From Bacteroidota bacterium (GTDB lineage Bacteria > Bacteroidota > Bacteroidia > Chitinophagales > Chitinophagaceae), in assembly GCA_018267965.1 (NCBI GenBank), contig JAFDXK010000005.1:124001-188000 (forward strand): a stretch of DNA of 64,000 bases, written 5' to 3'. Below are positions 16,231 to 50,505 of the stretch, in pieces (the stretch's first letter is position 1; each line of letters begins with the position of its first letter). The notes under the pieces are model-generated. The model was given only the letters and a program-made list of their open reading frames with translations. It did not search any database and was not told where the DNA came from. The position numbers and the translations under genes are program-made.

Positions 16231-16302
16231 GGTCCCGTAGTTCAATGGATAGAATAGAAGTTTCCTAAACTTTAGATACAAGTTCGATTCTTGTCGGGAC
16301 TA
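16231..16302 (+). tRNA. tRNA-Arg (anticodon CCT)
   Basis: The acceptor stem is GGTCCCG with CGGGACT (one G-T pair at the first position), followed by discriminator A at 16302. The anticodon stem GAAGT/ACTTT encloses the loop TTCCTAA, so the anticodon is CCT. The T arm is ACAAG-TTCGATT-CTTGT. The D arm is short (GTTC/GAAT). CCA is not encoded. The 3' half is also the end of the recombinase gene on the other strand and marks the element's attachment site. Confidence 0.93.
16265..16302. other. Probable left attachment site in the tRNA-Arg 3' half
   Basis: The minus-strand recombinase frame continues through the complement of the tRNA anticodon arm, T arm and acceptor and stops at 16265. Its last residues VVPTRIELVSKV are read from tRNA sequence. 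Elements that insert in tRNA 3' ends commonly leave this kind of overlap. A direct repeat of part of this segment should lie at the right end, beyond the window. The exact crossover cannot be placed from one end. Confidence 0.6.
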
Positions 16303-17824
16303 CTCTACAGGAAAGCAAGTTATTTTTTGAAAATTTGCTTTCCTTTTTTTTCTCAAACCCCTTGCCCATAGCAGCTATCAGCAGAATGACATTATTGTTC
16401 GAATTAGTTCGATATTGATTATTTTCAAAAATCAGCTTTTCAGGAAAGGTCGAACTAATTATTTGACGTTTTACGTCCAAAGCCGCTGTGGTAAAGAGTT
16501 TATCCATATGTTGCAAAAAATGAAATCCGTATTCCATCACGGCAATTTCATCTTTGGTTTTTGATCCTGCGATCGCTTCAATCTTTATTTGAATGCGGTG
16601 TATGTCTTCTTGTAATCTTGATTTGATGGGTTGGTATTCCATAAAATCCATTTGTCCATCCAGCATTAATGTTTGTGCTCTTTCCATTCGTTGTTCACAG
16701 GTTTCCAGTTTCTTTTTCAGTTCCGCCAGTTCTTCTGCCCTGCTGCTGTTCGCTTCTTTATTCTCGCTTCCTAATATAAGCTCCAGTGAACGAAACACTT
16801 TATCATTACTGCTTACTGCTCGCAATACATCATAAAATACTTCATTGGCTTTATCTGCCCTGAATCGTTCCTTACATCCAAAATTGCAGTGATAATAATA
16901 ATACCTTGCTGTACTTCCCTTAGATGCACTGCCCGTTAATGGCCTCCCACATTTAGAGCATTGTAAAAAACCTCGCAGTGGCAGTTCCTCTTTTTGACGG
17001 TTAGCTTTGGGCCGTTCATTATTCTTTCTTCCTTCTAATATATCCTGCACTTCATAAAACAATGCTTCCGGTATGATCGCTTCATGAACTGCTTTGACCA
17101 AACAAGCGGGTTCTCCTTTATATGCCGGTACAAATACTTTTCCCATATAGGTCGGATTGCGCAGCATTGACCAAAAGCAAGCTCGCCCCAAACGCATTCC
17201 GGTTTTATTGAGCTTTCGTCTCAGTTCTTCCAACTGGTAAGAACCTGTTGCCATCATCTCAAAAGATTGCAGTACCATTTCTTGTTCATCGGATGGTACA
17301 ATGGTTGGTTTATTATTTTCTGTGCGTCCGTGTTTATAGCCATAGGGTGCTGAACCCATATATCGCCCTTCTTTCATTGCCTTACGCATTCCTGCCAAAA
17401 CGTTCAATGACCTTCTATCATTCTCTACTTCGGGGGCAGTCAGGTATAAGGCTAATAAGAACTTCTGTTCAGGGATCTCCATGTTAAGAGGTTGCTCGAT
17501 AGCTTGTGGTTCTACTCCGAGTTTTTGTAACCTTGCTATCATGGTATAGGCTTCAGGGGCATTACGGGAGAACCTATCCCATTTAAGGAACAGGAGTAAG
17601 TCTACAATGCCTTTATTCTTTCTTTGAAATTCCAAGAGCTTCTTAAACTGGGGGCGTTCAAAGGTCTTGGCGGAGTAATCTTCTTTAAAGAAGGCTACGA
17701 TCTCAATATGATTGGTGGTACAATACCTGCGGAGCGTTTCTTCCTGGTGTGCCAGGCTATGGCCTTTCTCTGCCTGTTCGTCGGTACTTACTCTTATATA
17801 TACTATGGCCTTTCTGCTTTTCAT
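16265..17824 (-). CDS. Large serine recombinase (integrase)
   Basis: This is the site-specific recombinase likely responsible for inserting the element. The N-terminal resolvase domain has the nucleophile in YIRVSTDEQ (Ser13) and the arginine-rich segment LKWDRFSRN. A recombinase domain follows (about residues 170-270, with GSAPYGYKHG), then a zinc ribbon (CSKCGRPLTG ... HCNFGC) and a coiled coil near residues 360-410. At 519 residues it fits the large serine family. The C-terminus is encoded by the complement of tRNA-Arg. Large serine integrases seldom use tRNA genes, so the target is notable. No separate directionality factor is recognised. Confidence 0.92.
   Translation of the reverse strand: MKSRKAIVYIRVSTDEQAEKGHSLAHQEETLRRYCTTNHIEIVAFFKEDYSAKTFERPQFKKLLEFQRKNKGIVDLLLFLKWDRFSRNAPEAYTMIARLQKLGVEPQAIEQPLNMEIPEQKFLLALYLTAPEVENDRRSLNVLAGMRKAMKEGRYMGSAPYGYKHGRTENNKPTIVPSDEQEMVLQSFEMMATGSYQLEELRRKLNKTGMRLGRACFWSMLRNPTYMGKVFVPAYKGEPACLVKAVHEAIIPEALFYEVQDILEGRKNNERPKANRQKEELPLRGFLQCSKCGRPLTGSASKGSTARYYYYHCNFGCKERFRADKANEVFYDVLRAVSSNDKVFRSLELILGSENKEANSSRAEELAELKKKLETCEQRMERAQTLMLDGQMDFMEYQPIKSRLQEDIHRIQIKIEAIAGSKTKDEIAVMEYGFHFLQHMDKLFTTAALDVKRQIISSTFPEKLIFENNQYRTNSNNNVILLIAAMGKGFEKKKESKFSKNNLLSCRVVPTRIELVSKV
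16309..16351 (+). terminator. Rho-independent terminator after tRNA-Arg
   Basis: A 10-bp stem (AGGAAAGCAA / TTGCTTTCCT, arms 16309-16318 and 16335-16344) is followed by a run of eight T residues. It lies on the plus strand seven bases past the tRNA and inside the 3' coding part of the recombinase gene, so the element itself supplies the terminator for the host tRNA. Confidence 0.75.
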
Positions 17825-32841: not shown

Positions 32842-35800
32842 ATGATATACACAGAACATCCTGAAATTGTATTAGGTGCCGTAGCGCCTGAAGGCGTACC
32901 GGAATTAAGTATAAGCTATACACGCAGCGGAAAACCTTTCTTAGGTACCGTACAAAATAGCATCGAGGTAGCGGCTTTTATACGCAGCCTGTTCAATGAA
33001 GGAGAAATTGAATTACAGGAATATTTTATCGTACTCTATCTCAATACTGCCAAGCGCATTGTTGGCTATTACCGGCATACCAAAGGCATGATCCATGCAA
33101 CAATGGCAGATACGCGCATCATACTGGGCACGGCACTTAAAAGCCTCTCTACGGGTATTATCGTAGCGCATAACCATCCTTCAGGAAAACTACAGCCTTC
33201 GCAGGCAGATATAGAGATGACAACGAAATTGAAGGATGCCTGTAAATACCTGCAAGTTGAATTATTAGACCATCTGATCGTCACTACTGACGGACATTAT
33301 TCTTTTGCAGACAGTAATATGGCAGGATTAGAACGTACTGTTGATAAGCAGGCAGATTATATCGCCAGCGTAGAATATGATCTGGAGCACCATAGCAAAC
33401 AAACCAAAAGTAGCCTTGAACGCAGGGCTGCACAATTACATATCCATGACCAGAATACGGTCAAAGAACTCACAGAGCTTGCCATCGTCAATGTAGCTAG
33501 AAGAATTGCGCTGCAATCTGGTGTATCTATTGAAGAAAAATATGAGCGCTTAGTGCACCTCTATCATGAACAGGTCAACCTGTCGCACCGCACTTCACAA
33601 AGTATCTTGCTGCAACAATACAGCACACCCGCACCCATCGGTTATCTTATGGGTGTTTTCTGCGGTATTGATACACTGCAACAAAGAGGAGGTTATGCGT
33701 TTGAGCCTTCAGCAGGTAACGGGCTCTTAACAGTCGCTGCCGTACCTGATCGTGTCTATGTCAATGAAGTGGATGCACTGCGCCGTGCCAATTTATTGCG
33801 GCAGGGATTTGCCAACGTTTGGAATCGTGACGGAAACAAACCATTTTTTGATGTGCAGCAGCATTTTATGGCGGTCATCACCAACCCGCCATTTGGCAAG
33901 CTGGATAAAGCAGTTGTAGTAAATGGTTATCCTATAGATACGCTCGAACACCTTATGGCTATCTATGCATTAGATACTATGACTGCTGACGGTAAAGCAG
34001 CGATCATCATCGGCGGGCATACTACATGGGATGGCAAAGGGCGCATACAGGCGGGTAAGAACCGCGTATTTTTTAATTACCTCTATCGTCACTACCATGT
34101 AGCCGATGTACTCCAGATGAGTGGTAAACAACTCTACTCCCGCCAGGGCACGGCTTTTAATACACGTTTGATACTTATCGGCGGACGCAAGAAAATTTTC
34201 AGTGGTGCAGCACCAGTATATAATGCGGAAAAGGATAAGGTGATTTACAGCTTTGATGAGCTGTTTATGCGGGTAAATACTGCCATGCAAAAAACATTTA
34301 CATTTTCCGAAGAGATGAATGCAACTTCTAGACCACAACACAATAAAAATTCAAATGACAATATGAATAGTGAAGCGCAACGATTACTACAAGCCTTACG
34401 TGGCAAAACCTTGGGCAATAGTGATACAGAGGATAATCAATACGCGATGGCATATACTGAATACTACTTACCGCTCCAGGATTTTTATCGCGGCGCATTG
34501 ATACTCATGCACAGCGGCGACTATTATGAAGTATATGGCAGGGATGCAGGCCTTATCAAACATTTTATACCTGCTGTAACAGTAAGTACTTTCTTATGTG
34601 ATGAGATGTATATTGAGCATATCGCATTGGATGCAGAGCAGGTAACAAAACTTACAAGCCAGCTTAGAGAAATGGGTATCCGTTTTATACTGACCGATGA
34701 TGAAGAAGCCTCTTACCCGGTATCACGCGAAGACGTTCCCCTGTCCGAAAAGCATCTTTGGGAAATTTCTTTTGCTGATTTTTTAGCATCCGAAAAACAA
34801 GTTTATCGCGAGTTATTAGCCGACGGTACTGAATATGAACTTCCCTACAAAACAGAATATGTGATATTATTCAACACCTTCTTAGGTGCTAATGTATATG
34901 AAGCTTATCCGGATAACCCTTATACGGCTACTGGCAGAAAACATCTATCCCAGCCAGCCTTCATGGAAAACTGCTTAAATATTATCCATGCTTATAATAT
35001 CCGTCTTGCCATGACGATGGATATTATAGTAAGCGAAAAAGTGCTGGCTGATTATCCACGCATGAAATTACGACAGGATGCGAGGATCACTTATTTAAAA
35101 ACATTGGTCTATGCAGGCAATCAGCTCAATGGTATAAAGCAGAAGTTTTCGGCATTATCAAAAAAGACCTTTTCACGCTTATCAAAAGAACTCAAACCTC
35201 TATTTCAGTTACCAGGTAAAAAAACACTACAAGGCAATGAAGATGATGACATCGTTGACCACAATGCTTTGTTTGAGCAGTATAAAAAACTCAAGCAAGA
35301 TAAAGCCGATGCTCTATATCTTTTGGAAACCCCTGAAACCTTCGTCACTTTTAATGAAGATGCAGAAATATTAGCGAAGACATGCAATATCGGTATCATC
35401 AAAGTAACGGAAGCTGGTGCATTCAACTATTTTATCACAGGCTCATCCAAGTCTTTATTATTTGTACGATTAGCCCAATTAGAAGATGCAGGCTATAAGC
35501 CTGTCCTTGTGGAAGACACACGTTATCATACCAGCGATTTACAAGAGCGTGTAGACCAGGAGTTGCATAAAATACTGCGCCAGATAGATAAGTTAAAGGA
35601 CGAGGAGAACTTGGGAGCTCCCTATAAACCCTCGTCGAATGCCTGTGTGGTATTAGATACCCAAGTGCCGGACAGTATGGCTTTTGAAACGCAGGAAGCC
35701 CTTGCAACTATTAAAGAAGCTGTCGGTGGTGATGCCGATAATTTTGTCCGTGACCGTTTGGGTTATCCTACCAAGACCGCTTTGTGCAAAGCCTTGTCTG

Positions 35801-38800
35801 CCGAACAAACAGATGCCGTGATGATGGCGATCTACAATATCGAAGCAAGAGGGCAAGGCATGATCATTGGTGACCAGACAGGTATCGGCAAAGGGCGTGT
35901 GGCGGCAGCCATGCTGCGTTATGCGCATCATCAGGGCATGAAGCCGGTATTCCTCACTGAAAAAGCTAACCTGTTTTCTGACCTGTACCGTGACCTCTAT
36001 GCCATCGGTTCAGGGCATTTACGCCCTTTCATCATCAATGGCAGGGAAAGTAAAACCGATATTAAGGACGAAGATGGCAATATTATTTACCAGGCACTGC
36101 CCTATACCGAACAGGCTGCGGTATTTAAAGCTGAAAAACTGCCTGCTGGTTTTGATTTTGCCATTGGTACTTATAGCCAGTTCAACAGCCCGGACAAAAA
36201 ACCTGAAAAGCCTGCTTTCCTAAATGCCATATCCCGTGACACAGTATTTATCATGGATGAATCGCATAACAGCAGTGGTATTTCCAACACAGGTAATTTT
36301 TTGCAAGGCGTTATAGCACAGGCAAGAGGGGTGGTCTATCTCTCTGCCACTTTTGCCAAACGCCCGGATAACATGCCTATCTATGCGGTGAAGACCGCTA
36401 TATCGGATTGTAATATGAGCCGCGACCAGTTGGTTGATGCTATACAGCGCGGCGGTGTAGCTTTACAGGAAGTATTGTCTTCGCAACTGGTCGCGGAAGG
36501 GCAGATGATACGCAGGGAGCGGAGCTTTGAAGGGGTTGAGGTGAACTATATCACTTTACAGGATAAGGCGCAGGAACATGCAGCCATTGCCGATAATATC
36601 ACAGGTATCGTCCGTGATATAATCAGTTTTCAGAAAGATTATATTGATGCCATCGTTGAAGAGTTAGATACCATTGCTGTTGCTGAAGGTAAAGCTGTCA
36701 ACATGAGAGATGGCACCAGCAAAGCTGGTGTAGATAATACACCCTACTTCAGCAAAGTATTTAATATTATCAACCAGATGCTGTTTTCTATCAAAGCTGC
36801 TTCCGTTGCAGAGCGTGCCATTGAACGGTTGAAGGAAGGCAAGAAACCTGTGATTGCTTTTTCTTCCACGATGGGTAGCTTTTTAGAAGACATGACGGAT
36901 GAGAAAGGGTTACCTGTAAGTGACGGCTCTGTGATCATGCCTGATTTTTCGGAAGTGCTGCGCCGAGGCTTGGATGGTGTGATGCGTTATACAGAACGAG
37001 GCGCTAACGGGGAACCTGTATACAGGGCATTCGAGGTAACGGAACTTTCTCCTGAAGCACAAACTATATATCATAGCATCCGTAAACGCATTGATGAGAT
37101 TGCTACTGGCATCTCTATCTCCCCTATTGATGTGGTGATACAAAAAATAAAAGCGGCTGGTTATAGGGTTGCCGAAGTCACCGGGCGTAAATACGAGCTG
37201 CAATGGTTAGAGCCTGATGATCCTTTGAATGATTTACTCCCAGAAGACATTGTGGTGAACAAGGATGGCAAATCGAATGGAACAGTACATAAGGCGATTG
37301 TAGCCTTACGTAAGAAGATCAATACCAACGATGCCTTCCGGGAGTTCAACAATAATCAAGTAGATGTGCTGCTCATCAACCAGAGCGGCAGCACGGGTGC
37401 ATCAGCACACGCTATACCCACATCAAAAGTAAAGAAGGAAAAAGTAAAGCAGCGTGTCATGATCGTGCTTCAGGCAGAACTGGACATCAACACAGAAGTG
37501 CAAAAACGCGGGCGTATCAACCGTACCGGGCAATTACTCAAGCCTATCTATGATTATATAAGCTCTGCTATACCGGCAGAGATGCGCCTGATGATGATGC
37601 TCCAGAAAAAACTCAAATCACTGGATGCCAATACAGCCTCCAATCAAAAACAATCTTCCAAAATATTAGATGTACCTGATTTTTTAAACAAATACGGCGA
37701 CCGCGTGGTCAAAGAATACCTGCTGGAGAATCCAACTATTAACCGGATGCTGGATGACCCTTTGCGGTTAAAGAACACAACCGATAGTGAACAAGGTGAA
37801 GTACAGCTACTGGAGAATGCAGCACATAAAGTGAGCGGGCGTGTGGCGGTGCTCTCTGTAAAAATGCAGCAGGAGTTTTATGCTGAAATTACGGAACGAT
37901 ATAACGATTATGTCTCCTACCTGCAACAGATAGGTGACTATGACCTCGAAATGGAAGCTATGAACCTGGAAGCCGAAACAGTAAACAGCAAGATCGTAAA
38001 AATGGGCAGTGGGTCCGGTAGTGTATTCAGCGAGGATAGCATACTGGAGACCGTACATGCGAATGTACTGCGAAAACCTTTTACAGCAACCGAGTTGGAT
38101 AATTTACTAAAAGAATCCCTGCAAGGAGAGGATGCACAGAAAATACAGCAGGATATTATCCGGGACTATAATGAAGAAACGGCAATGGCTGCGGACATCG
38201 AAGCCAGAGAATTGAATGAACGCTACCATGAGCTGACCAAACGTATTTACTTAGAAAAGAAATTTCAACGGCTAAAATCAGATAGTGAAAGGGAACAATA
38301 TTATCATGAACGGGAAAAGCAGATAGAAGACGCAAGGCAGAAAGCACTCAAGCAATTATTAGATAAAGCAGCCGCCCGTAAATTTTATCTCGAAAAACTG
38401 TTCCGCTTCTTTTACATTGGGCGTAACCTCTCCTTTCCTATTAATGCAGGCAACGGCTATATGGAATATGTGCCTGCGGTGTTCTTAGGGTTTGTGATCG
38501 ACTGGAAGCGTAAGCACCCTTTTCTACCGTCGAAAATCAAACTCCGTTTTGCGCTGGCGAACAGCAATAAATATTTTGCAATGCCTGCTTCTTTTGATGA
38601 TATAGATAAAATCATTGGTGCGAGTGCAGAACTGCCGCAACTAGGTAATGAACAGATGCTGCATAACTGGGGAACCTATATCCAGCAGAATAATGCAGAC
38701 CGCAAGACCCGCCATATTGTAACGGGCAATTTATTACAGGCCTTCAGTGATTTCAGGGGCAAGTTGGTGAACTATACGACTCTTGATGGTAAAATAGAAA

Positions 38801-39327
38801 AAGGAATATTGCTACCGGAGAATTGGGTGATGGACGAGCAGGAACAGGATAAGGTGAGCATACCTGCTATCAAAGCTTTACCACTTATTAAATCGATCAC
38901 TATCGGGCATTCTATTGTCACTACTACAGGCATTGGTTTTGTACGCCAGCCAGCCAATTATAAAATTATTGTGCCGATGTCACGTAAGGTGGCAGGTGAT
39001 ATTTACCTGGATAAGGATTTACTCGCTCTCGTTGAAGGCAATAATTTTAACAGGGTATCGGATAAGATGGTAGCGCAGGTAGAATTTTCTGCCATCGAAC
39101 GGTTCGTCGGGATCATACAGGATAAACATACCTGTTCGGTGATGGTGAGCCGTCACCAGTTCAACCAGATGGAAAAACAGGTGGTCGCACAATATCGCCG
39201 CAGGCCCATCAGGATGCCCTCCCCTGAGACTGAATTTCAGCCCAACGACCAGGAGTTAGAATTATTACAACTCGAAGCGGAAGCGCTTAAACTCAAATTA
39301 CGTCTCAAACTACGATTAGCAGCCTAA
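32842..39327 (+). CDS. Giant polyvalent protein: RadC/JAB, N6-methylase, MutS-I-like, strawberry-notch/DarB-like helicase
   Basis: This protein of 2161 residues joins several enzymes. Residues about 20-160 are a RadC/JAB domain with the metal ligands of HNHPSGKLQPSQAD (His110, His112, Asp123). Residues 200-470 are an N6-adenine methylase (FEPSAGNG at 287, NPPF at 348). Residues near 545-640 resemble the MutS mismatch-binding domain I (HSGDYYEVYGRDA at 557). A strawberry-notch helicase follows: Walker A GDQTGIGKGR (about 1010), DESHN (about 1139), the arginine-finger motif KRGRINRTGQ (about 1555), then coiled coil. Phage P1 DarB is a known relative and protects injected DNA. Here it may modify or guard element DNA; this is inference. 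Confidence 0.8.
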   Translation: MIYTEHPEIVLGAVAPEGVPELSISYTRSGKPFLGTVQNSIEVAAFIRSLFNEGEIELQEYFIVLYLNTAKRIVGYYRHTKGMIHATMADTRIILGTALKSLSTGIIVAHNHPSGKLQPSQADIEMTTKLKDACKYLQVELLDHLIVTTDGHYSFADSNMAGLERTVDKQADYIASVEYDLEHHSKQTKSSLERRAAQLHIHDQNTVKELTELAIVNVARRIALQSGVSIEEKYERLVHLYHEQVNLSHRTSQSILLQQYSTPAPIGYLMGVFCGIDTLQQRGGYAFEPSAGNGLLTVAAVPDRVYVNEVDALRRANLLRQGFANVWNRDGNKPFFDVQQHFMAVITNPPFGKLDKAVVVNGYPIDTLEHLMAIYALDTMTADGKAAIIIGGHTTWDGKGRIQAGKNRVFFNYLYRHYHVADVLQMSGKQLYSRQGTAFNTRLILIGGRKKIFSGAAPVYNAEKDKVIYSFDELFMRVNTAMQKTFTFSEEMNATSRPQHNKNSNDNMNSEAQRLLQALRGKTLGNSDTEDNQYAMAYTEYYLPLQDFYRGALILMHSGDYYEVYGRDAGLIKHFIPAVTVSTFLCDEMYIEHIALDAEQVTKLTSQLREMGIRFILTDDEEASYPVSREDVPLSEKHLWEISFADFLASEKQVYRELLADGTEYELPYKTEYVILFNTFLGANVYEAYPDNPYTATGRKHLSQPAFMENCLNIIHAYNIRLAMTMDIIVSEKVLADYPRMKLRQDARITYLKTLVYAGNQLNGIKQKFSALSKKTFSRLSKELKPLFQLPGKKTLQGNEDDDIVDHNALFEQYKKLKQDKADALYLLETPETFVTFNEDAEILAKTCNIGIIKVTEAGAFNYFITGSSKSLLFVRLAQLEDAGYKPVLVEDTRYHTSDLQERVDQELHKILRQIDKLKDEENLGAPYKPSSNACVVLDTQVPDSMAFETQEALATIKEAVGGDADNFVRDRLGYPTKTALCKALSAEQTDAVMMAIYNIEARGQGMIIGDQTGIGKGRVAAAMLRYAHHQGMKPVFLTEKANLFSDLYRDLYAIGSGHLRPFIINGRESKTDIKDEDGNIIYQALPYTEQAAVFKAEKLPAGFDFAIGTYSQFNSPDKKPEKPAFLNAISRDTVFIMDESHNSSGISNTGNFLQGVIAQARGVVYLSATFAKRPDNMPIYAVKTAISDCNMSRDQLVDAIQRGGVALQEVLSSQLVAEGQMIRRERSFEGVEVNYITLQDKAQEHAAIADNITGIVRDIISFQKDYIDAIVEELDTIAVAEGKAVNMRDGTSKAGVDNTPYFSKVFNIINQMLFSIKAASVAERAIERLKEGKKPVIAFSSTMGSFLEDMTDEKGLPVSDGSVIMPDFSEVLRRGLDGVMRYTERGANGEPVYRAFEVTELSPEAQTIYHSIRKRIDEIATGISISPIDVVIQKIKAAGYRVAEVTGRKYELQWLEPDDPLNDLLPEDIVVNKDGKSNGTVHKAIVALRKKINTNDAFREFNNNQVDVLLINQSGSTGASAHAIPTSKVKKEKVKQRVMIVLQAELDINTEVQKRGRINRTGQLLKPIYDYISSAIPAEMRLMMMLQKKLKSLDANTASNQKQSSKILDVPDFLNKYGDRVVKEYLLENPTINRMLDDPLRLKNTTDSEQGEVQLLENAAHKVSGRVAVLSVKMQQEFYAEITERYNDYVSYLQQIGDYDLEMEAMNLEAETVNSKIVKMGSGSGSVFSEDSILETVHANVLRKPFTATELDNLLKESLQGEDAQKIQQDIIRDYNEETAMAADIEARELNERYHELTKRIYLEKKFQRLKSDSEREQYYHEREKQIEDARQKALKQLLDKAAARKFYLEKLFRFFYIGRNLSFPINAGNGYMEYVPAVFLGFVIDWKRKHPFLPSKIKLRFALANSNKYFAMPASFDDIDKIIGASAELPQLGNEQMLHNWGTYIQQNNADRKTRHIVTGNLLQAFSDFRGKLVNYTTLDGKIEKGILLPENWVMDEQEQDKVSIPAIKALPLIKSITIGHSIVTTTGIGFVRQPANYKIIVPMSRKVAGDIYLDKDLLALVEGNNFNRVSDKMVAQVEFSAIERFVGIIQDKHTCSVMVSRHQFNQMEKQVVAQYRRRPIRMPSPETEFQPNDQELELLQLEAEALKLKLRLKLRLAA

Positions 39328-41427: not shown

Positions 41428-42489
41428 CTATAATAAATCAGAAATGGTGTTTAATGACCGATTACTAACATATCTAGTTGGTTTAACATCAGCTTTTAGA
41501 ATTCTTTTTTCAAATTCATCAATAATATCTTGAGCGTTATCTTTTTGTATTTCTTCAAGAAGATCGGAAAACGAGTTAGCAAACATCAGCCCTCTAGCTC
41601 CTAAAAACAAGCAGTTTAATGAGCCTAATAATTGGCCAAAATTCATAGCCTCTATTAAAATATCCTTTGAGAGATTTTTTTCAAAACTGCCGCTTGAAAG
41701 TAACCGATGGATAACCCCAGAAGAGCACCAATCACCTGCCCCAGCTGCATCGAATACATTAGAAATTTTATAGGCTGGTAAATAACTCCAATTTGTGTCG
41801 TATATAGTTCTGAAATTTAAACCCTTCTCCCCCAAAGTTTCAATTTCCAACGCAACTCTAGGCTTTTTATATAGCTGCTTATAATTGGGGATTCTTTCAC
41901 TACTAAATTTGATTATATCACAGTAGGATAAGCATTCATTAAATATTTTCTCTTCCCTAATACTGGATGGTTCAAGAAAAACAACTCCGCCACTTGATTT
42001 ACACTCCTTCGCTAATTCAACAGATGATCTTGTTATTCTATCCAAGTACAATACTTTGGCTGAGGGTTTCTTATCAACAATGTCCGGAATGGCAGATGCC
42101 AATACTGGCTTATAACTTGGTAAATACTTCCCAGTTTCTGGATCTCTAAATTCGAACCTGTGTTTGGGCTTCCCAGCTTTATCTTTAAGTACTCGGTGAA
42201 TAATGATAGGCGTACTTCCATCATTAGTAACAGAAACCAATTCAGTATTTACATGATTCTGCTTAAATTCTTTAAGTATAATTTTTGTCGCATCATTATT
42301 TGCTAACCGGGCTACTGGAAAAGTCTGCCAATCCATATAAGCTAAAATTGCCATTACATTTCCACAAGAGCCACCTACAAAATATAGTGGTTTAAACGCC
42401 TTGTCTCCATTCATTATAACATCTAAAGCCACTAGCCCTATTCCAATGGCTATATTTGACTTCGCTTCCCTTATCATTTTATCCTTCAT
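41428..42489 (-). CDS. PfkB/ribokinase-family kinase
   Basis: This protein of 353 residues has the ribokinase-like fold that phosphorylates sugars or nucleosides with ATP. The N-terminal glycine motif is VGGSCGN (residues 38-44) and the anion-hole/catalytic motif is DAAGAGDW (247-254, base Asp253; DTxGAGD in most members). It is the last gene of the six-part operon. The ATG at 42489 overlaps the previous gene by 11 bases, while the ATG at 42477, one base past that stop and behind AAGGA, is an alternative start. The substrate is unknown; partners that handle sugar phosphates suggest a sugar or nucleotide product. Confidence 0.82.
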   Translation of the reverse strand: MKDKMIREAKSNIAIGIGLVALDVIMNGDKAFKPLYFVGGSCGNVMAILAYMDWQTFPVARLANNDATKIILKEFKQNHVNTELVSVTNDGSTPIIIHRVLKDKAGKPKHRFEFRDPETGKYLPSYKPVLASAIPDIVDKKPSAKVLYLDRITRSSVELAKECKSSGGVVFLEPSSIREEKIFNECLSYCDIIKFSSERIPNYKQLYKKPRVALEIETLGEKGLNFRTIYDTNWSYLPAYKISNVFDAAGAGDWCSSGVIHRLLSSGSFEKNLSKDILIEAMNFGQLLGSLNCLFLGARGLMFANSFSDLLEEIQKDNAQDIIDEFEKRILKADVKPTRYVSNRSLNTISDLL

Positions 42490-43609
42490 ATGGCACTCCG
42501 ATAAGCCAAATTACAAATAATTCGCTTTGCTTATTAAATTCTTCTTGCTCATCGATATTTTCAATAGTGTAGCCTCTAGCATCTACATTTACTACTCCAA
42601 TAATATCTCGCTCTATATTTGTTTGGTATGCAGCTAGTAATGTACCAATTGACAATAATTTACTTGAAAAAGTTGAAAGAGCCGCACGACAGCCATTTAA
42701 TATTCCTAACGATTTGTAATAGTTATTTACTGTCTTAATAATAATTTTATATGCTTCAAATGGGTTTTGTTCAGGTACATACATTATATTTTGAGGTTCA
42801 ATTTTAAGAACATCAAACAATAAACTATGATAGCTGATTAACAATGAGTCTGGGCGTCGAAGATCTTTAGCTGGGAAAGGAAATATTGGACAAACCTCGT
42901 TGGGCGCAAGCTCGCTATGCGCTGACCTTATGTGGGGTTCTTTATCTTCTCCTAATATCGGTAACCATATTAAAGGCTCTTCCCTTTCTGGCGGAGATTT
43001 AATACCTCCCATGAAACCCATTAGAAACTTCGGTTCGCTATCAAGATCATTTTCCTTTATGCAGTTATCAATTTTTGCATTTTCTGAGACAGTAACCATT
43101 AAGTTAATCAAAGGTGCATCAGCAGGCTTAGAATCTAATATGTGAATAAACTTTCCGACCAATGAAAAATAGATTCCACGTGGCAATGCGCTAATGTCTA
43201 TGATAATATCTGAATAACCTTTCAAATCATCGTAACTATTAATAAGAGCGGCAGCTTCTCTGTCTCCCACTCGTCTTCTCCGTGTACCATCTTGTTTCCA
43301 TAAATTGATATTCTTCTCGATAAGACTTTTACCGCTTAAAATTGTAGTAAGATCATCGTAGTTTTTCTTTACATAATCCACATACTGATGTGACGACGAC
43401 TCACTTCCCTCATTAAAACAAATAAGCAAACACGAGATATTCAGATTGGGATTAGTAGATACTATATCACGAATTACATTATTCATCCTAACATCAAATC
43501 CCTTACCCATTACAAATAACAAGTGGTGACTTGCTGTTGTATCAAAATGTTGCTTGAGCAGATGTTTGGCTTTTACGCCTGATTCAAGTACATAAGGATC
43601 CCATCTCAT
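42479..43609 (-). CDS. Unknown protein with GKGFDVR and DISALPR motifs
   Basis: I cannot name the family of this protein of 376 residues. An N-terminal Rossmann-like pattern is visible: strand LLFVMGKGFDVR (31-41), strand ISCLLICFNEG (58-68), and IIIDISALPRGIYFSL (135-150), with charged loops between. The small-residue and Asp/Arg motifs at strand ends look like a nucleotide- or phosphate-binding site. The C-terminal half is less distinctive. It starts two bases after the ATPase gene and overlaps the kinase gene, so it is a fixed part of the operon. Confidence 0.65.
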   Translation of the reverse strand: MRWDPYVLESGVKAKHLLKQHFDTTASHHLLFVMGKGFDVRMNNVIRDIVSTNPNLNISCLLICFNEGSESSSHQYVDYVKKNYDDLTTILSGKSLIEKNINLWKQDGTRRRRVGDREAAALINSYDDLKGYSDIIIDISALPRGIYFSLVGKFIHILDSKPADAPLINLMVTVSENAKIDNCIKENDLDSEPKFLMGFMGGIKSPPEREEPLIWLPILGEDKEPHIRSAHSELAPNEVCPIFPFPAKDLRRPDSLLISYHSLLFDVLKIEPQNIMYVPEQNPFEAYKIIIKTVNNYYKSLGILNGCRAALSTFSSKLLSIGTLLAAYQTNIERDIIGVVNVDARGYTIENIDEQEEFNKQSELFVIWLIGVPYEG

Positions 43610-43611
43610 TT

Positions 43612-45504
43612 TTAGGTGATTTTAGTCCATTTTAATAAGTCCTCAGGTTTAATAGATCTCCACCCACCGTAACCTAGCGGTAAGTTAAATCTAACGCATA
43701 ACCATCTATTTAGGTAATAAACCGTGGTAGGATCACTCCCTTTTTTACCATGATTGACGGTTCGTTTCTCTAACAGATTAAACGAAACACAGGTTGAAAG
43801 CACATTTGACAATTGTATAAAAACTTCATCGTCAAGCCAATGCTCATCTTGTATAAGTTTGTTAGATGCCGGAGGCTTTAATGCGAATCCGGTAACACCT
43901 GGCGCATAAGGGAAAGTTGGTCGATTAGATTCTTTATATGCAAATTCATGAAATTTTTGTAAAAATTTCTTAACAACTTCGGAGTATGGTATTAATGTTG
44001 ATAGTTCTTTCCATTTATCATTTACCACTCGCATGATAATTCTTTGCTGCTCTTCTGTGGTAATAAGAGTCGCTTTTCTGGCAATACGATTGGACAGCAT
44101 AGCCTCATAAAGTTCTCCAGCAAAATGTAAAAATTGGTCAATATTAAATGACGAAATCTGTACAAGTTTATCAAACGAATAATAATACGGTAGTTTTGAT
44201 TCTAAGCTAATAAAGTATTCAGCTGCATTTTCAATTTGTGAGATTATAGATGCCTTTAATACTGCACTCGGGATTTCCATTTCCATTGCTGTTTGTTGTT
44301 CCGACAAATTTCTATGGACGATTATTTCCGTGCTCCTGGTTAAAATGGCTCTTTCTAAATCCGAGCAGTCCTCTGTACGTACATAATTTAACCACTCATT
44401 AAATTTTGTTGTTTGTTCAGATATTGAGTTGAGGCGGGTTATTGACTTTTCATACGCATCTTGGTAATTAGTCTTAAACACTTCTTCATTAATATTAGCT
44501 TCAAGGTTTTCGTCAAAACCTGGGACATCTTCGGTTGAAATTGCTGCTCTTCTAAATGCTATATTACTCACGATACTTTTGAACTTCGCTTCCCTTGTTT
44601 GCCAGATAGCCTCTAGATTTAACTCATTATAATCTCTTCCTTGATAAGACTTAAGATTTTCCTCAGTAGTTAATGCCTCTAAGCGTTCAGAAACCCAAAT
44701 GCTAAAATTATTACGTTGCTCAATTATGTATTTTATGAGAAAATCCCTTTGTTTGCCAGATAGTTTATGCGCATCGTCAAACATAAATAACATACGTTCA
44801 TTAAACGCTTCATTGTTAATTTTAATTTCAGCGTTAACTAGTAATCTGAGGGTAAACAATTCACTATGTCCTTCTGGTTGAATTTGATCGATAGGCAAGA
44901 AGCTATCTAAAGCCTTATAAACTTTCTTTTCAACATTAATCGCCCAATCATAGAGCAAAGCACCTGTACAAGGAAATGAAACATCATTAATAAAATTAGT
45001 GTCAGGTGTGTTAATTGTAATTTTATCTAAATCTTGGGGAAATGAAAGTCTTTTTATAGTTAATAACCCCCTTAAGGTGGTCATTACAATTCTTGCGTTA
45101 ATAAGGGCAAAAAAGAAACGTTTTTTCTTAGCATCGTCTACATGAAGATCTTCTAGAATCTCGTAATTTTTATTGCAGTGTAAGCAAACACCCAATAGCT
45201 TAACCTTATCATTATCAATGACGTCAATCTTCTTTAAGTAATCTCTAAGGTCTTTTACCTGGGGGCTAGATTTACTATTATGCAGCGTTACAAGAGTTGC
45301 AGGTTCAAATATTCTTAGTAAAGAGGATTTACCTGCACCAGGCGAACTTCGAATAAAAAGTAGGTCGTTCCACAACTTATCATCTTTATGTCTTTCTGCA
45401 AAATCTTCTAGTATTATAGGACTATAAATACGCAGGAAAGTAGAGTCTGAGTCAATTTTCTCAGATCTTCTAATTTTAAACGGATTTCTAGTTCTCAGGC
45501 TCAT
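43612..45504 (-). CDS. ORC/Cdc6-like AAA ATPase
   Basis: The protein of 630 residues has Walker A SSPGAGKSS at 53-61 (after the strand DLLFIR) and Walker B MLFMFDDAHKL at 238-247, with FSIWVSERLEAL as sensor region. The order resembles ORC/Cdc6-type and other STAND-like ATPases. The C-terminal 100 residues (LSNVLSTCVSFNLLEKRTV ... TVYYLNRWLCV) look like a winged helix. Such ATPases in defence islands act as sensors or switches; that role is an inference here. Its start overlaps the stop of the phosphoribosyltransferase-like gene by four bases. Confidence 0.75.
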   Translation of the reverse strand: MSLRTRNPFKIRRSEKIDSDSTFLRIYSPIILEDFAERHKDDKLWNDLLFIRSSPGAGKSSLLRIFEPATLVTLHNSKSSPQVKDLRDYLKKIDVIDNDKVKLLGVCLHCNKNYEILEDLHVDDAKKKRFFFALINARIVMTTLRGLLTIKRLSFPQDLDKITINTPDTNFINDVSFPCTGALLYDWAINVEKKVYKALDSFLPIDQIQPEGHSELFTLRLLVNAEIKINNEAFNERMLFMFDDAHKLSGKQRDFLIKYIIEQRNNFSIWVSERLEALTTEENLKSYQGRDYNELNLEAIWQTREAKFKSIVSNIAFRRAAISTEDVPGFDENLEANINEEVFKTNYQDAYEKSITRLNSISEQTTKFNEWLNYVRTEDCSDLERAILTRSTEIIVHRNLSEQQTAMEMEIPSAVLKASIISQIENAAEYFISLESKLPYYYSFDKLVQISSFNIDQFLHFAGELYEAMLSNRIARKATLITTEEQQRIIMRVVNDKWKELSTLIPYSEVVKKFLQKFHEFAYKESNRPTFPYAPGVTGFALKPPASNKLIQDEHWLDDEVFIQLSNVLSTCVSFNLLEKRTVNHGKKGSDPTTVYYLNRWLCVRFNLPLGYGGWRSIKPEDLLKWTKIT

Positions 45505-46604
45505 TCTTTATGTCTTGTTACTCTTGGAAATAATCCTTCAATCTTAGCACCCTCTTCAGACGGGAACCAAAGAATAGGCAATGAATTATTTGGCGTATTA
45601 TGATTCAAAATAAGAGGCAGTGCACATTCATCAAAACCTAGATATGGTTTATCTATTTTGCCTTTTTTATAATGTCTATCTATAATAGACTCATCGAAAT
45701 ATTTTTCTTGCGAAATTAATTGTGCAAATGGTGCATTATTTATTACAGACTCCCAAATAAATGGCCCTATCTCTTGAACTGCTGACACAGTGTGTTTGAA
45801 GTTGTAATTGTTTTTCAATTTCCATGCTTCAATTCCACCACTAATATATTCTAGTGCCTTTTTCGTAGCTAAATAAAACAGAATATGTAATTCTAAATGC
45901 TGTTGTTCTAACAATTCTTTAAGGCCTAAATCTTGCTCGGCTGAATCCTGAAAAATTTTATCAATAAATCTGAGGAGCTTACCTTCACCTTCTTCGGGAC
46001 GCAAATAACTTAACCCACTTGCCGTAAAATCGTCTATTAAAAAGACTGTAGTAAATTTACAATCTTTATCAAGCTTCTTTTTTAACTCCTCAAGTAAGTC
46101 TCTTATTTTTTCACTTGATATATGGTATGATGAAAATACCTGTTCATTATCTAGTTTAGCAAATCTTCGCAGTTGGTCAATCCTTGCCCCATCACTTAAT
46201 CCTAAAAAAATTGATTGCCGTTTTACTTCTTTATACACACTGTTGTTGTGAATTTTTGTAGTGTGGTAGTAGGGTAGCGATAATAGCTCTGCAGCTTTTT
46301 GTGTAAGAAGCGGGTCAATTTTTTCTTGGAAACTTATTTCAATTAAGTGGTTTATTTGTTCGCTAGTTATAAATATCAAATGTGATTTCAGAAAATCGTA
46401 CGCCGTATTCCTCTCTTCTATTGTTTGAAATTGATTTAGCCAATTTACCAAACTTTCTGTGAATCTTCGACCAGGGGAAAACTGCTGGTATTCATCATAC
46501 TTAAAGTTTCCCATCGCCTGTATCAATGGTCGTTCTTTTGAAATCTGGTCTTGATTCCAGCCCATAATTTGTACAAGTATGCTTTCGGCTAGGGCGCTAT
46601 TCAT
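45501..46604 (-). CDS. Phosphoribosyltransferase-like protein (PRTase-CE type)
   Basis: The C-terminal two thirds of this protein of 367 residues resemble a type I phosphoribosyltransferase. The PRPP-binding loop is VFLIDDFTASGLSYL (187-201), where DD-x-x-A-S-G replaces the usual DD-x-x-T-T-G. The N-terminal 100 residues are helical. Related proteins have been described from bacterial conflict islands under the name PRTase-CE (recalled). They may transfer to or from PRPP, or only bind a ribosyl-phosphate ligand. It overlaps the HAD gene by eight bases and the ATPase gene by four. Confidence 0.7.
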   Translation of the reverse strand: MNSALAESILVQIMGWNQDQISKERPLIQAMGNFKYDEYQQFSPGRRFTESLVNWLNQFQTIEERNTAYDFLKSHLIFITSEQINHLIEISFQEKIDPLLTQKAAELLSLPYYHTTKIHNNSVYKEVKRQSIFLGLSDGARIDQLRRFAKLDNEQVFSSYHISSEKIRDLLEELKKKLDKDCKFTTVFLIDDFTASGLSYLRPEEGEGKLLRFIDKIFQDSAEQDLGLKELLEQQHLELHILFYLATKKALEYISGGIEAWKLKNNYNFKHTVSAVQEIGPFIWESVINNAPFAQLISQEKYFDESIIDRHYKKGKIDKPYLGFDECALPLILNHNTPNNSLPILWFPSEEGAKIEGLFPRVTRHKE

Positions 46605-47502
46605 TAACTATAAATTTAAAAAAATTCTTAGTAGGGTGTATTTGTTTTAAATACAACAAACACGCCTTATCGTTAGTAACACCAAATGAAGATATATTCC
46701 AACAAGTATCGGGATCAAGTGAAACCTCATTTACGCTCAGTGAATAGGGGGTACTTAATAACTCAAAATCATTACCCGGCCATTTTCCTTTGTCTCCAAT
46801 ACATAAACAATTCTCAGGAGCTCTTTTCTGCTCCAGTAATGGTTTACAATATTTAAGAATATTCAATTTAGATACTTCAGGCCGTTTAATTATGTCTAAA
46901 GAACGACTTGATTCTAATATCATAACCCCATCATTTTTAATCAACATCACACTCTGATAAATCAGGGCTTTAATTGACTCCCACTCACCTGTATTCTTAC
47001 TTTCAATTGTTAATTGATACGGTCTAGGTTGGATGTCAATATGCTTTTTAAAATCCGCTACATTAAGCACTTTAATTATACCACCAAAGACAGGATCTAT
47101 TGGCAATTGAGTATTTGGATAGGTATTATTATCTAATGATGCTATTTCGGCACCGTTATAATACCCTATTATTATTTCGTTCCAATATTTTTTGTCTATA
47201 AGCTTCCTTAGATCATTTTTTATCGATTGTCCCCTACCCGTTACTATTCCTATTGTAATGCCAGCTTTTAATAAGCGGTTCAATTCTATTAGTATTTCCT
47301 TCGTTGGGCCAACTAGACGGTTTTTATCAGAGCATAAAGTTCTGTCATAGTCAAAAATTACTGCTCCAAATTTTACATCTTCTAGTTTTTCCTTAAAACT
47401 GTAATAATGCTTATTCCAACGATTTAATTCACTTTTATTCAGTTCATTAATATGTACAGGTCTAATTTTACGCTGAATAGCTATATCTGCATTTTTTTTT
47501 TT
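46597..47502 (-). CDS. HAD-superfamily phosphatase domain, probably made as a SIS-HAD fusion
   Basis: The frame is open from the stop codon at 47506-47508. It encodes an HAD phosphatase: motif I AVIFDYDRTL (nucleophile codon 47350-47352), motif II TIGIVTGRG, a Lys in SKLNILKYC and motif IV CIGDKGKWPGND. The layout is like that of Cof or sucrose-phosphatase types. There is no ATG before motif I; the first usable TTG (47283) would delete it. The frame meets the upstream SIS gene at a run of eleven A residues, so a -1 slip would make one SIS-HAD chain of about 640 residues. A sequencing error or mutation in the A run is the other explanation. Confidence 0.75.
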   Translation of the reverse strand, partial: KKKNADIAIQRKIRPVHINELNKSELNRWNKHYYSFKEKLEDVKFGAVIFDYDRTLCSDKNRLVGPTKEILIELNRLLKAGITIGIVTGRGQSIKNDLRKLIDKKYWNEIIIGYYNGAEIASLDNNTYPNTQLPIDPVFGGIIKVLNVADFKKHIDIQPRPYQLTIESKNTGEWESIKALIYQSVMLIKNDGVMILESSRSLDIIKRPEVSKLNILKYCKPLLEQKRAPENCLCIGDKGKWPGNDFELLSTPYSLSVNEVSLDPDTCWNISSFGVTNDKACLLYLKQIHPTKNFFKFIVNE

Positions 47503-48509
47503 GAATTAGATTTTATGAGAGAGGAGTAACTCAAATTATATAGTTTACTGCCAAAAGCTGGTACCCCTGGTCTTCCTGGATCGATATTTAGTCTTTTCCC
47601 TATTTCGTCAACTAAATAAAAACTTTGTATCAATAAATCTAATGTTGCATCTGGGCCTTCGTTTTTTGTATCTAATATCAAGCGTGGGATTTGTTTAGGT
47701 ATTACGTTAAGTGTCTTTTGAGCTAAGTCATATTCTGCGGGGGTTGTTAGAGCTACTATTGCACTTTGATTACCTCGTTTAGCTAACCAATGATGTCTCC
47801 CATGTCCAAAATTACGATAGTCTGCAAGCAAGCTATTACCTAATGCAGCTTCAGTTAATTTCGATTCCAAATCGATAGCTACCGGTTTGCCCCAACCTCC
47901 ATACATAACTTTGTATGTCACATTTGCCACATCAATAGAATCCAAGAATACGTTAATTCGTTTTCGAGTATCTAGTTCATGTTTTTGCGATATAAATTTT
48001 GTTTTAAACTCATGCCCATAAGCCCTAGCCAGGATTATAAAAAATGCGACCAATGAATTTGAGGCAAGAAAGCCATCTTTCCCTGTTGGTAATGGGAATT
48101 CGAATGTTGACACTATATTATATGGGATGGCTTTTTTAGCTATTAAGCTTTTAGCCGTTGTGCTTATTGTTATGATTTGCTGAGGTTCACATTGTATAAC
48201 CTGATCAAAGCTAAATAGTATATCCTTATTTCTCCCCCCCGCTGTAATAAAAAAAATCAATCCTTCACTTATTGCCTTTGATAAATATATTGTTTCTAGT
48301 GGTGTAACTGCTTTACCCGCAAAACCAGCTTCCTGATGAAGTAATTCTGCAAAATAACAGGCACTTAATGAGCCTCCAGAACCTACAGCAAACAAAGGTT
48401 TAGAAGCGTATTTTTTTACGGTATCTTTTAATTCAGATATATCTAGTCCTAGTACATATTCTGCGATTTCAGGTAGTTTATTTAGTTCTTGTGCAAATGG
48501 TTTCCCCAT
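47481..48509 (-). CDS. SIS-domain (sugar isomerase-like) protein
   Basis: SIS domains bind phosphosugars, as in GlmS and sugar-phosphate isomerases. This protein of 342 residues has FAVGSGGSLSACYFAELL (40-57) and the second binding segment IFFITAGGRNKDILFSF. A second half holds YRNFGHGRHHWLAKRGNQS, a His-rich stretch that may carry the active site. It is the first gene of the operon; the C-terminus runs into the A11 run, where the HAD frame takes over. With the kinase and HAD proteins it suggests turnover of a sugar phosphate. The specific substrate is unknown. Confidence 0.8.
   Translation of the reverse strand: MGKPFAQELNKLPEIAEYVLGLDISELKDTVKKYASKPLFAVGSGGSLSACYFAELLHQEAGFAGKAVTPLETIYLSKAISEGLIFFITAGGRNKDILFSFDQVIQCEPQQIITISTTAKSLIAKKAIPYNIVSTFEFPLPTGKDGFLASNSLVAFFIILARAYGHEFKTKFISQKHELDTRKRINVFLDSIDVANVTYKVMYGGWGKPVAIDLESKLTEAALGNSLLADYRNFGHGRHHWLAKRGNQSAIVALTTPAEYDLAQKTLNVIPKQIPRLILDTKNEGPDATLDLLIQSFYLVDEIGKRLNIDPGRPGVPAFGSKLYNLSYSSLIKSNSKKKMQI
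47492..47502 (-). other. A11 slippage site joining the SIS and HAD frames
   Basis: The coding strand has eleven consecutive A residues, read as TCA AAA AAA AAA ATG in the SIS frame, which then stops three codons later. A -1 ribosomal shift or one extra A in the mRNA moves to the HAD frame. Runs of this length are known sites of transcriptional slippage. Confidence 0.6.
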
Positions 48510-48851: not shown

Positions 48852-50426
48852 TCATACGTTCAAATTAGGATTCAATCCCAATGGCGTAATAACATTAGCC
48901 TTTAACCTTGCAAAATAAGGACGGTCTTGTCCATTGATCCTGTGAGGTATTTTATCAAATTGCTGCCATACTGTAGCCATATATCCAAAATAAGGATGAT
49001 TATTATCCATTGTTGCACTTGGCTGACGCAACATATTTTCCAGTACTGTCTTTACCTGATCCGTTTGAGCATTTTCCTGTAGACGACAATATCTGGATAA
49101 AAGAGTATCAAGGATCTGCAATTTTCTACGGTCTCCATAATAAGGACTACGTGTAATATCCTCTAGCATAGAACCAAGACAGCGAATTATATCAACATAT
49201 ATTCCTGGATGGGCTCTCTCATTTGAAAGCTTTAACCATAATAATAAGTTATCAACCATTATTTCTACCAGTTGATGGTAGTTAGCAATCTCCCTCTCAA
49301 AATTATCTGGCGGTGTTGTATCGAATGTCTTTAGAATATTTTCTGTTATACGGTCATAATAGTAAAGCCAAAAATGGCTATCGGTATATCCCTTAATAAT
49401 CGCTTCAATAAGCAGGAATTTTAGGAACTGAACGGCATAGTAGGTCTTGAATTCCCAAAGTATTTGTTCATTGATAAATCCCTGAAATAATTTACTTGCG
49501 AGACCCTTAAAGCGTTCTTCATTAATTTCATTAACGGCAGCTTCTCCGAATGGTATCCAAACATTATTTATATCAGCTACTCCTAGATCCATAAAAAGAG
49601 CAGACAAAATACGGTTATCCTTAAAAAACCACCCAGGCTGTCCACTATCATGCTTTTCACTATCTATTAACTCTTTTTTCAGCCAAAAATTTTTAGCAGC
49701 CAACAGTTCTCTAAAATAGCTTTGTATTAATTCGCGAGGAAAGGCATCTCTTTTTGCCGGTTTAAAATGTTTAAATAGGTCCGCAAAAAAATAAGGGTGT
49801 TCATTGGCAGCAAGGCTAACAAAAGCAGGGTCTGCAATAATATTAGAAAGAATGGTTTGTGCATACATTCGTCTGCTCAAAGGTGAAAAAGGGAATAAGG
49901 CAAGTACCCCTTTCTCCCAGCGTTCTTTTGCCTTTTCCCTGAATGTTCTTTGTACAAGCCTTCTTTCCCACCAATCTCTATCTTCCACAAAATCTTTACT
50001 CCGGTCAATATATCGAATAATGTCTCCTTTATGATATTTTTCCAAAAGTTCAATCAGGAAGGAAATATTGTTATTCTCAATCTGCTGCCTGTAAAACACT
50101 AATAGCTTTTCGCATTTACTGTAAAAGAAATATGGAGCCCAGATTTTATACCCTAAGTACAAAAGACTTACCAGGGAAATACAATATGCCCAATGTCTGG
50201 GTTGCCGAAACCCGAAGTTTTTAAAATACAGGAATGGCAAATATATCCCCCTGCCGGAGAAACTTTCATAGTAAACAAAATAATTAATAGCTATGAACGC
50301 TACTGAAAATAATACATAATCTCCTGTACCAAGCTTCAATAACAAATGCCTCCTGTTCCGTTCATTAATAAGCGCAAAGATTGCTATGATTAAGGTTAGT
50401 AAAACTATTACATCGTTGACACTCAT
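48852..50426 (-). CDS. Membrane-anchored protein of unknown function
   Basis: The protein has three or four hydrophobic helices in its first 110 residues (VIVLLTLIIAIFAL, YVLFSVAFIAINYFV, AYCISLVSLLYLGY) and then a large helical, charged cytosolic domain of about 400 residues rich in Trp and Tyr. No catalytic motif is seen. The ATG at 50426 is preferred; a frame from a TTG at 50495 adds 23 hydrophobic residues. It lies upstream of the defence-like operon on the same strand. A sensor or membrane effector role is possible but unproven. Confidence 0.6.
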   Translation of the reverse strand: MSVNDVIVLLTLIIAIFALINERNRRHLLLKLGTGDYVLFSVAFIAINYFVYYESFSGRGIYLPFLYFKNFGFRQPRHWAYCISLVSLLYLGYKIWAPYFFYSKCEKLLVFYRQQIENNNISFLIELLEKYHKGDIIRYIDRSKDFVEDRDWWERRLVQRTFREKAKERWEKGVLALFPFSPLSRRMYAQTILSNIIADPAFVSLAANEHPYFFADLFKHFKPAKRDAFPRELIQSYFRELLAAKNFWLKKELIDSEKHDSGQPGWFFKDNRILSALFMDLGVADINNVWIPFGEAAVNEINEERFKGLASKLFQGFINEQILWEFKTYYAVQFLKFLLIEAIIKGYTDSHFWLYYYDRITENILKTFDTTPPDNFEREIANYHQLVEIMVDNLLLWLKLSNERAHPGIYVDIIRCLGSMLEDITRSPYYGDRRKLQILDTLLSRYCRLQENAQTDQVKTVLENMLRQPSATMDNNHPYFGYMATVWQQFDKIPHRINGQDRPYFARLKANVITPLGLNPNLNV

Positions 50427-50505
50427 CGTTGAAATCGTATTGGTAAAAGGTGTTATTGCACTTAGTAATGTCGTATAAAGAATCGTTTTAAGCAAAATAA
50501 AACAA

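Follow-up and report, generated by a model that had tools for sequence, protein, structure and literature searches.

The DNA analysed here (the window) is a 64,000-nucleotide stretch of contig JAFDXK010000005.1 (positions 124,001 to 188,000 of the forward strand; GenBank assembly GCA_018267965.1) from a Bacteroidota bacterium of the family Chitinophagaceae. Between positions 41428 and 48509 the reading-frame listing of the window contains six frames, all on the minus strand, that make up an operon of a phosphoribosyltransferase (PRTase), an ORC-like ATPase, a CARF6-family protein and enzymes of the SIS, HAD and PfkB families. An earlier note on this DNA had placed a tightly packed, six-part operon here, in a mobile element, and had proposed it as a candidate defence system. 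The position and the packing are borne out: from HAD to PfkB, neighbouring frames share 4–11 bases or sit 2 bases apart. The G+C content drops from about 0.43–0.45 to 0.34–0.36 within the operon. The features are listed from the first gene to the last (PRPP, phosphoribosyl pyrophosphate).

47481–48509, minus strand: SIS part, predicted tandem-SIS phosphosugar isomerase/deaminase class with a GlmS/NagB-II-like fold; relatives have it fused to HAD, as the first half of one gene
47492–47502, minus strand: A11 run at which the frames of SIS and HAD diverge; a slippage site, a mutation or a sequencing slip
46597–47496, minus strand: HAD part, HAD-IIB phosphatase; motif I DYDRT, motif IV GDKGKWPGND
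45501–46604, minus strand: PRTase-CE phosphoribosyltransferase; PRPP-loop motif DDFTASG; Pfam PF24390, E 2.3e-23
43612–45504, minus strand: ORC-CDC6-like AAA+ ATPase; Pfam PF24389, E 2.1e-22; P-loop and Walker B Asp retained
42479–43609, minus strand: CARF6-family tandem Rossmann-like protein; PADLOC PDLC01910, E 1.2e-106
41428–42489, minus strand: PfkB-family sugar or nucleoside kinase; Pfam PF00294, E 1.5e-10; catalytic GAGD retained

Content, relatives and setting of the operon

The operon was compared across 97 window-type loci (class A), comprising the window, 80 genome contigs, 12 plasmids and four viral contigs. When ∼ 85,000 species genomes were scanned with the alignment of PRTase, 370 pattern matches were obtained, 331 of them relatives; because only the best 80 of these were retained, the genome loci lean to close relatives. 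By tblastn, 17 plasmid records contain CARF6 and 16 contain ORC; most are from rhizobia, with Sphingomonas, Sulfitobacter, Paenarthrobacter and Paraburkholderia as further hosts, and the 12 plasmid regions were chosen from these records (11 via an ORC match, one via a CARF6 match). Viral contigs searched with CARF6 alone gave nothing, and in 395 genomes of the window's phylum the CARF6 search returned no locus besides the window. According to the record titles the operon occurs in Bacteroidota, Alphaproteobacteria, Planctomycetota, Acidobacteria, Nitrospirae, Nostoc, Desulfosporosinus, Dehalococcoidia, Armatimonadetes, Myxococcales and two archaeal metagenome-assembled genomes (MAGs), a list that may include misbinned contigs since many of the relatives are MAGs.

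The order SIS-HAD, PRTase, ORC, CARF6, PfkB is the commonest (56 loci). PRTase, ORC and CARF6 follow one another identically in all 93 loci that hold the three, and in each of these, the window included, the ATPase gene adjoins CARF6 on one strand. Gene order thus recurs across many phyla far above chance; its absence elsewhere, which the earlier note held would speak against a defence system, was looked for and not seen.

The six frames of the window correspond to five proteins, since SIS and HAD are fused elsewhere and part in the window at the A11 run. In relatives SIS-HAD is a single polypeptide of ∼ 630 residues. Of the 97 loci, 86 have a fused open reading frame (ORF) that spans 85% or more of the profile (including L013, where the frame is broken near the C-terminal end); among the rest, six have a partial SIS-HAD at the contig start, L056 is broken in several genes, and in three, which lack SIS-HAD, a contig edge falls inside or just before PRTase. 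Only in the window, among the 97, are SIS and HAD encoded in two frames that adjoin. A set of six independent genes, as 'six-part' would imply, is ruled out by the single ORF in 86 loci. The HAD frame of the window has no ATG, GTG or TTG upstream of its catalytic motif, which makes a separate HAD gene with an ordinary start unlikely; the TTG start at 47283 predicted for the HAD ORF would remove motif I. The split may be due to transcriptional slippage, to a mutation or to an error in sequencing.

In the Pfam scan the HAD frame matched Hydrolase_3 (E 2.2e-7) and the SIS frame had no match of its own; the latter is alignable to the SIS half of the fused proteins. A structural model of the fused SIS-HAD from L016 (pLDDT 91.6) matches structures of NagB-II, GlmS and tagatose-6-phosphate isomerase, and the modelled SIS part is assigned on this ground to the ketose-aldose isomerase/deaminase class. 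The catalytic motifs are kept: among the 86 fused relatives the SIS HGR pattern is present in all, the HAD DxDxT pattern in all when sought anywhere in the protein (82 at the expected place) and HAD motif IV in 81.

The window PRTase matches PADLOC PRTase_III-A profiles (best E 3.7e-14), a name that we take to denote retron type III-A, and the DDFxx[ST]G pattern is retained in 94 of 95 cases. In the ATPase the P-loop pattern (92/93) and Walker B (90/93) are likewise kept. The third member of the triad, described by the earlier note as an unknown Rossmann-like protein, is indeed tandem Rossmann-like but belongs to a named family, PADLOC CARF6. Its AlphaFold2 model (pLDDT 94.2) gave weak tandem-Rossmann matches alone in Foldseek (TM 0.19–0.27 on the query); with no CARF protein among the 50 matches listed, the name 'CARF' derives from PADLOC. 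PDB sequence searches with the CARF6 and PRTase profiles gave no match.

PfkB is present in 84 of the 97 loci, and its G[ASC]GD motif is intact in 83 of 83 cases. Its profile matches sugar kinase PH1459 and fructokinases; the best NCBIfam match, ribose-1-phosphate kinase, lies far below the cut-off of that model. Ten of the 13 loci without PfkB have a contig end at most 1.8 kb from the module. The other three (L007, L094, L097) have no less than 2.4 kb of sequence on either side, and all carry a NADAR gene, which is found in 18 of the 97 loci and not in the other 79 (some of them truncated), the window among the latter. Fourteen of the 29 PfkB members in the alignment have a CPxC cysteine pair, which the window PfkB lacks and which, to our knowledge, is not a feature of other sugar kinases.

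Pairwise distances among the 63 loci that differ by more than 10% in PRTase divide the operon into two co-evolving units. Distances correlate closely within the PRTase-ORC-CARF6 triad (r 0.92–0.96) and between SIS-HAD and PfkB (r 0.93), whereas between the two units r is 0.59–0.66 (best of 500 shuffles ≤ 0.19). Two loci carry duplicated cores. The stretch from Rhizobium tumorigenes (L004) has two complete triads and a single SIS-HAD/PfkB/NADAR set; that from Sinorhizobium meliloti (L009) has two ORC-CARF6 cores and, again, one such set, the first core lying at the edge of the fetched stretch with its PRTase outside, the second having a frame-broken PRTase. Taken with the split in the correlations, these duplications show the operon behaving as two exchangeable modules, an immune-like core and a sugar-phosphate pair. 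The sharing of one set by two cores also fits a product of the second unit that acts in trans.

A mobile element, as the earlier note had supposed, is supported by the drop in G+C and by a large serine recombinase (16265–17824; resolvase, recombinase and zinc-ribbon domains) whose 3' end lies over a tRNA-Arg gene (16231–16303); the two are likely the integrase and attachment site of the element. The relatives too are in mobile settings (plasmids, type IV secretion system neighbours), and the operon also occurs on chromosome-sized contigs (L040, L061). Viewed by eye, a 2161-residue protein of the window (32842–39327) resembles the polyvalent proteins of conjugative elements; it has a helicase part and two motifs, HNHPSG (RadC-like) and NPPFG (methylase).

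Defence genes in the flanks were compared with a control for 69 of the 97 loci (28 were dropped: 12 plasmids, the window and 15 near-duplicates or short contigs). The flank sample comprised 150 of 557 flanking ORFs, from 58 loci; for the control, 20 regions of 20 kb were taken at hand-chosen round positions in 13 of the same genomes, and 140 of their 298 ORFs were used (ten of the 150 ORFs drawn were omitted by size). At E ≤ 1e-15 PADLOC assigned 138 families in the 150 flank proteins and 25 in the 140 control proteins. As families with many models inflate such counts, distinct system names at E ≤ 1e-60 were also counted: among the matches listed there were ten in the flanks versus two in the control (Fisher p 0.036, a rough guide, as different names may be one protein). 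The flank names are Gabija GajA, type I methyltransferase, type I restriction enzyme, type IIG, PD-T4-1, AbiEi, NsnA, PDC-S27, PDC-M45B and PDC-M48A, with TniQ_V and DrmMI omitted; those of the control are DpdF and PsyrT. Matches weaker than 1e-60 include SoFic, IetA, a TPR protein, PDC-S24, three mad3 and others in the control, and four mad2 in the flanks. Both AbiEi and AbiEii matches occur in the flank sample. The enrichment in defence genes that the earlier note had thought worth looking for is therefore present, although modest.

Divergent ORC-CARF6 loci and known systems

The ORC-CARF6 pair is not confined to the window-type operon. Seventeen divergent loci (L148, L151–L166) were selected for holding both genes; L119–L121, L123, L149 and L150 are shorter cuts of the same places, L122 and L124 (of seven loci inspected) were dropped as having neither PRTase nor CARF6, and the weaker matches L125–L147 lie outside the sample. 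Ten of the 19 plasmid records of divergent relatives were opened. Within the window's phylum, 102 of 395 genomes have a PF24389 match at E ≤ 0.001; 25 pass the cut-off, most by a short P-loop stretch, and strong full-length matches (E < 1e-90) number three besides the window. A divergent CARF6 model matches in two of 398 genomes, around G405. One genome (G401) holds a window-type operon (L032) together with an ORC-CARF6 system with C5-methyltransferase and thymidylate synthase, which contains a further strong PF24389 match (L148).

Around these strong matches, the two CARF6 matches in other genomes and the ten opened plasmid relatives, the partners of the pair vary. It occurs with an N6/N4 methyltransferase and another PRTase-CE in L151, L160–L162 and L165 (three of them with ThyX); with a metallophosphoesterase in L152, L153, L157–L159 and L166 (Dam in all except L166); with a C5 methyltransferase and HD-CE in L154, L155, L163 and L164 (one with ThyX); with a C5 methyltransferase and thymidylate synthase in L148; and with an N6/N4-like gene in L156. 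No PRTase-CE, HD-CE or metallophosphoesterase was recognized upstream of ORC in L148 and L156. In the window, the slot directly upstream of ORC, that of the putative effector, is occupied by PRTase-CE. ORC-CARF6 pairs form a wider modular class with interchangeable effectors.

A DNA methyltransferase accompanies 16 of the 17 divergent loci: nine served as seeds of the profiles, which then picked up the other seven. In L153 and L155 the gene is ∼ 3 kb away. Thymidylate synthases adjoin five (L148, L160, L161, L164, L165). The same methyltransferase and thymidylate synthase profiles matched none of the 97 window-type loci, although methyltransferases of other types would escape them; the window-type flank sample contains some of types I and IIG. 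On this distribution (16/17 versus 0/97) we file the window operon as a variant of the ORC-CDC6-like/CARF6 class, one in which a sugar-phosphate unit is found and a DNA-modifying partner is not. In comparison with its divergent relatives it adds SIS-HAD and PfkB, and sometimes NADAR and a helix-turn-helix gene. The divergent systems, with their methyltransferases, thymidylate synthases and interchangeable effectors, perhaps deserve a study of their own.

The view that the operon matches nothing known has to be revised, as three core components fall in families already in Pfam or PADLOC: the ORC-CDC6-like, PRTase-CE and HD-CE families (PF24389, PF24390, PF24391) together with PADLOC CARF6 account for three of the five window proteins, in the order PRTase-ORC-CARF6. 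No publication evidently describing the operon was found among the literature matches listed; Makarova 2020, Burroughs 2015 and Burroughs and Aravind 2020 reportedly bear on it. With its families already in these databases, the core has probably been noticed before; the parts of the operon are known ones, and what is uncommon is how they are combined.

Several known systems share single features with the operon, and were compared by scanning seven proteins against Pfam and PADLOC. Type III-A retrons, if the PADLOC name is read as above, have a homologous PRTase in the effector place (E 3.7e-14); the window differs in that no reverse transcriptase was found among the seven proteins and ORC and CARF6 stand in its stead. 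The PRTase is the usual effector of type III retrons in an excerpt of PMC12548924. BREX resembles the operon in its ORC-type ATPase (the excerpted text of PMC12839542 places BrxC, of the ORC/Cdc6 clade, at its core) and in the methyltransferase and phosphoesterase partners of some divergent relatives, but the scan gave no PglZ, PglX/BrxX or BrxB match. In Ter systems, as far as an extract of PMC7824862 describes them, PRTases occur with HAD phosphoesterases as predicted makers of a nucleoside-like signal. The window likewise combines a PRTase with a HAD phosphoesterase; it differs by a PRTase of another family, by the ORC ATPase in the operon and by the lack of any match to TerB, TerC, TerD or a von Willebrand factor A domain in the scan. 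NADAR enzymes strip ADP-ribose from DNA guanine and form toxin–antitoxin pairs with DarT (PMC11125620, in part). Their presence in 18 window-type loci recalls DarT-NADAR, but no DarT-type toxin was recognized in the operon, and NADAR is optional. Finally, type III CRISPR and CBASS are set apart by the absence of a Cas10 or CD-NTase PADLOC match in the seven proteins, and the link through a CARF fold is ambiguous, with a PADLOC match at E 1e-106 yet no CARF structure among the Foldseek matches listed. On the scans of the seven proteins, membership of CBASS, type III CRISPR, retron, BREX or Ter systems was rejected.

Possible function

Judged from its genes, their order and motifs, its modular make-up and its mobile, partly defence-rich setting, the operon is probably a conflict system borne by mobile elements, most likely directed against phages or plasmids and built of two units. 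In the first, the immune core, the ORC/CDC6-like AAA+ ATPase and CARF6 would form an ATP-dependent sensor or switch that, on sensing an invader or a signal, licenses the PRPP-type PRTase-CE as effector. Homology to the retron III-A protein and the swapping of genes in its slot are the grounds for regarding the PRTase as the effector. It may act on nucleobases, nucleotides, PRPP or nucleic-acid bases and so halt growth or replication. The second unit would be a sugar-phosphate pathway. Its enzymes, the isomerase and phosphatase SIS-HAD and the kinase PfkB, joined in some lineages by NADAR, would supply or clear a diffusible phosphosugar linked to the chemistry of the PRTase, thereby protecting or priming the cell. 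In such a system a PRTase effector related to that of type III-A retrons is joined by an ORC-type ATPase and a CARF-type protein; the five-gene set is widespread and belongs to a class whose interchangeable effectors are accompanied by DNA methyltransferases, thymidylate synthases or sugar-phosphate enzymes. If the immune reading is true, metabolite analysis of one operon could reveal the role of PRTase effectors in immunity.

Several observations weigh against an immune role. The enrichment in defence genes is modest (p about 0.04, with each system name counted as one protein), and viral contigs with the operon are few (four loci), with no ORC match in 50,697 phage records. The scan of the seven proteins revealed no nucleotide cyclase, no Cas10, no nuclease and no membrane toxin, and Foldseek listed no CARF protein for CARF6. 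A metabolic role, too, would be in keeping with the strongly conserved catalytic motifs of SIS-HAD and PfkB.

The pattern of partners in the divergent loci also suggests a modification-type, restriction-like system, which we regard as an unlikely alternative. ORC-CARF6 would inspect DNA. In the relatives a DNA methyltransferase would mark self DNA and a PRTase, HD protein or phosphoesterase would be the effector; in the window type SIS-HAD/PfkB (with or without NADAR) would replace the methyltransferase by making or editing a sugar-derived self mark or antidote. The exchange of methyltransferases (16/17 versus 0/97) is consistent with this, as are the regular pairings of N6/N4 with PRTase-CE (5/5), Dam with metallophosphoesterase (5/6) and C5 with HD-CE (4/4), and the thymidylate synthases beside five of the 17 divergent loci. 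NADAR, a remover of ADP-ribose from DNA guanine on the partial account of PMC11125620, would fit in the 18 loci that have it; it is not found in the other 79, some truncated, the window among them. Moreover, no glycosyl- or ribosyltransferase for DNA was recognized among the operon's genes, small molecules are the substrates of SIS, HAD and PfkB, and the exchange itself is blurred by the methyltransferase types to which the profiles are blind and by the type I and IIG enzymes of the window-type flanks. A more specific form seems to us improbable: SIS-HAD and PfkB (with NADAR) would take over from methylation by producing, trimming or removing a mark or antidote derived from a sugar or a phosphoribosyl group, and PRTase-CE would be a weapon that works by the same chemistry. 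Immunity would then operate through (phospho)ribosyl chemistry, with nucleotides or DNA bases as its targets.

A specialized sugar or nucleotide salvage operon that rides on mobile elements and is regulated by ORC and CARF6 is doubtful indeed. Four enzyme activities with retained catalytic motifs and the resemblance of PfkB to ribose-1-phosphate kinase and fructokinase profiles could be explained in this way, and one plasmid locus (L007) adjoins ABC transporter genes and an arabinofuranosidase. This is the single case: no sugar-uptake or catabolic gene recurs in the 25 largest neighbour clusters or in the 12 annotated plasmid regions, so that the catabolic context named by the earlier note as a sign against defence was sought and found at L007 alone. 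A sugar-uptake operon is ruled out on the same evidence. In addition, the triad evolves apart from SIS-HAD/PfkB, related triads exist without them, and the scatter across distant phyla is unlike that of core metabolism.

Least likely of all is a toxin–antitoxin-like module that stabilizes plasmids and integrative elements, with the PRTase as toxin and the second unit as antidote: the plasmid and integrative-element setting and the duplicated cores of L004 and L009 sharing one metabolic set would agree with it, but the operon is large, with five genes, lies on chromosome-sized contigs too, and shows no small labile antitoxin.

Accessory and neighbouring genes

A gene for a 547-residue protein (48852–50495) lies upstream of the operon in the same orientation; it has no convincing family match in Pfam, PADLOC or NCBIfam and is not among the recurring neighbours of the relatives (25 largest clusters). 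An RND-efflux-like gene, recognized by eye, is near six loci. Frame breaks occur in the PRTase of L009, the SIS-HAD of L013 and L056, the ORC of L056, L071 and L165, and the CARF6 of L056; they are either decay or sequencing slips.

A further gene family recurs after CARF6 in 13 loci (L042, L043, L046–L048, L053, L059, L060, L062, L064, L067, L087 and L091), mostly from MAGs of Prevotella or other Bacteroidales. A PDB sequence search with the member from L059 gave no match; read by eye, the sequences may be AbiEi-like. By position, 14 of its 21 ORFs lie within the operon, between CARF6 and PfkB.

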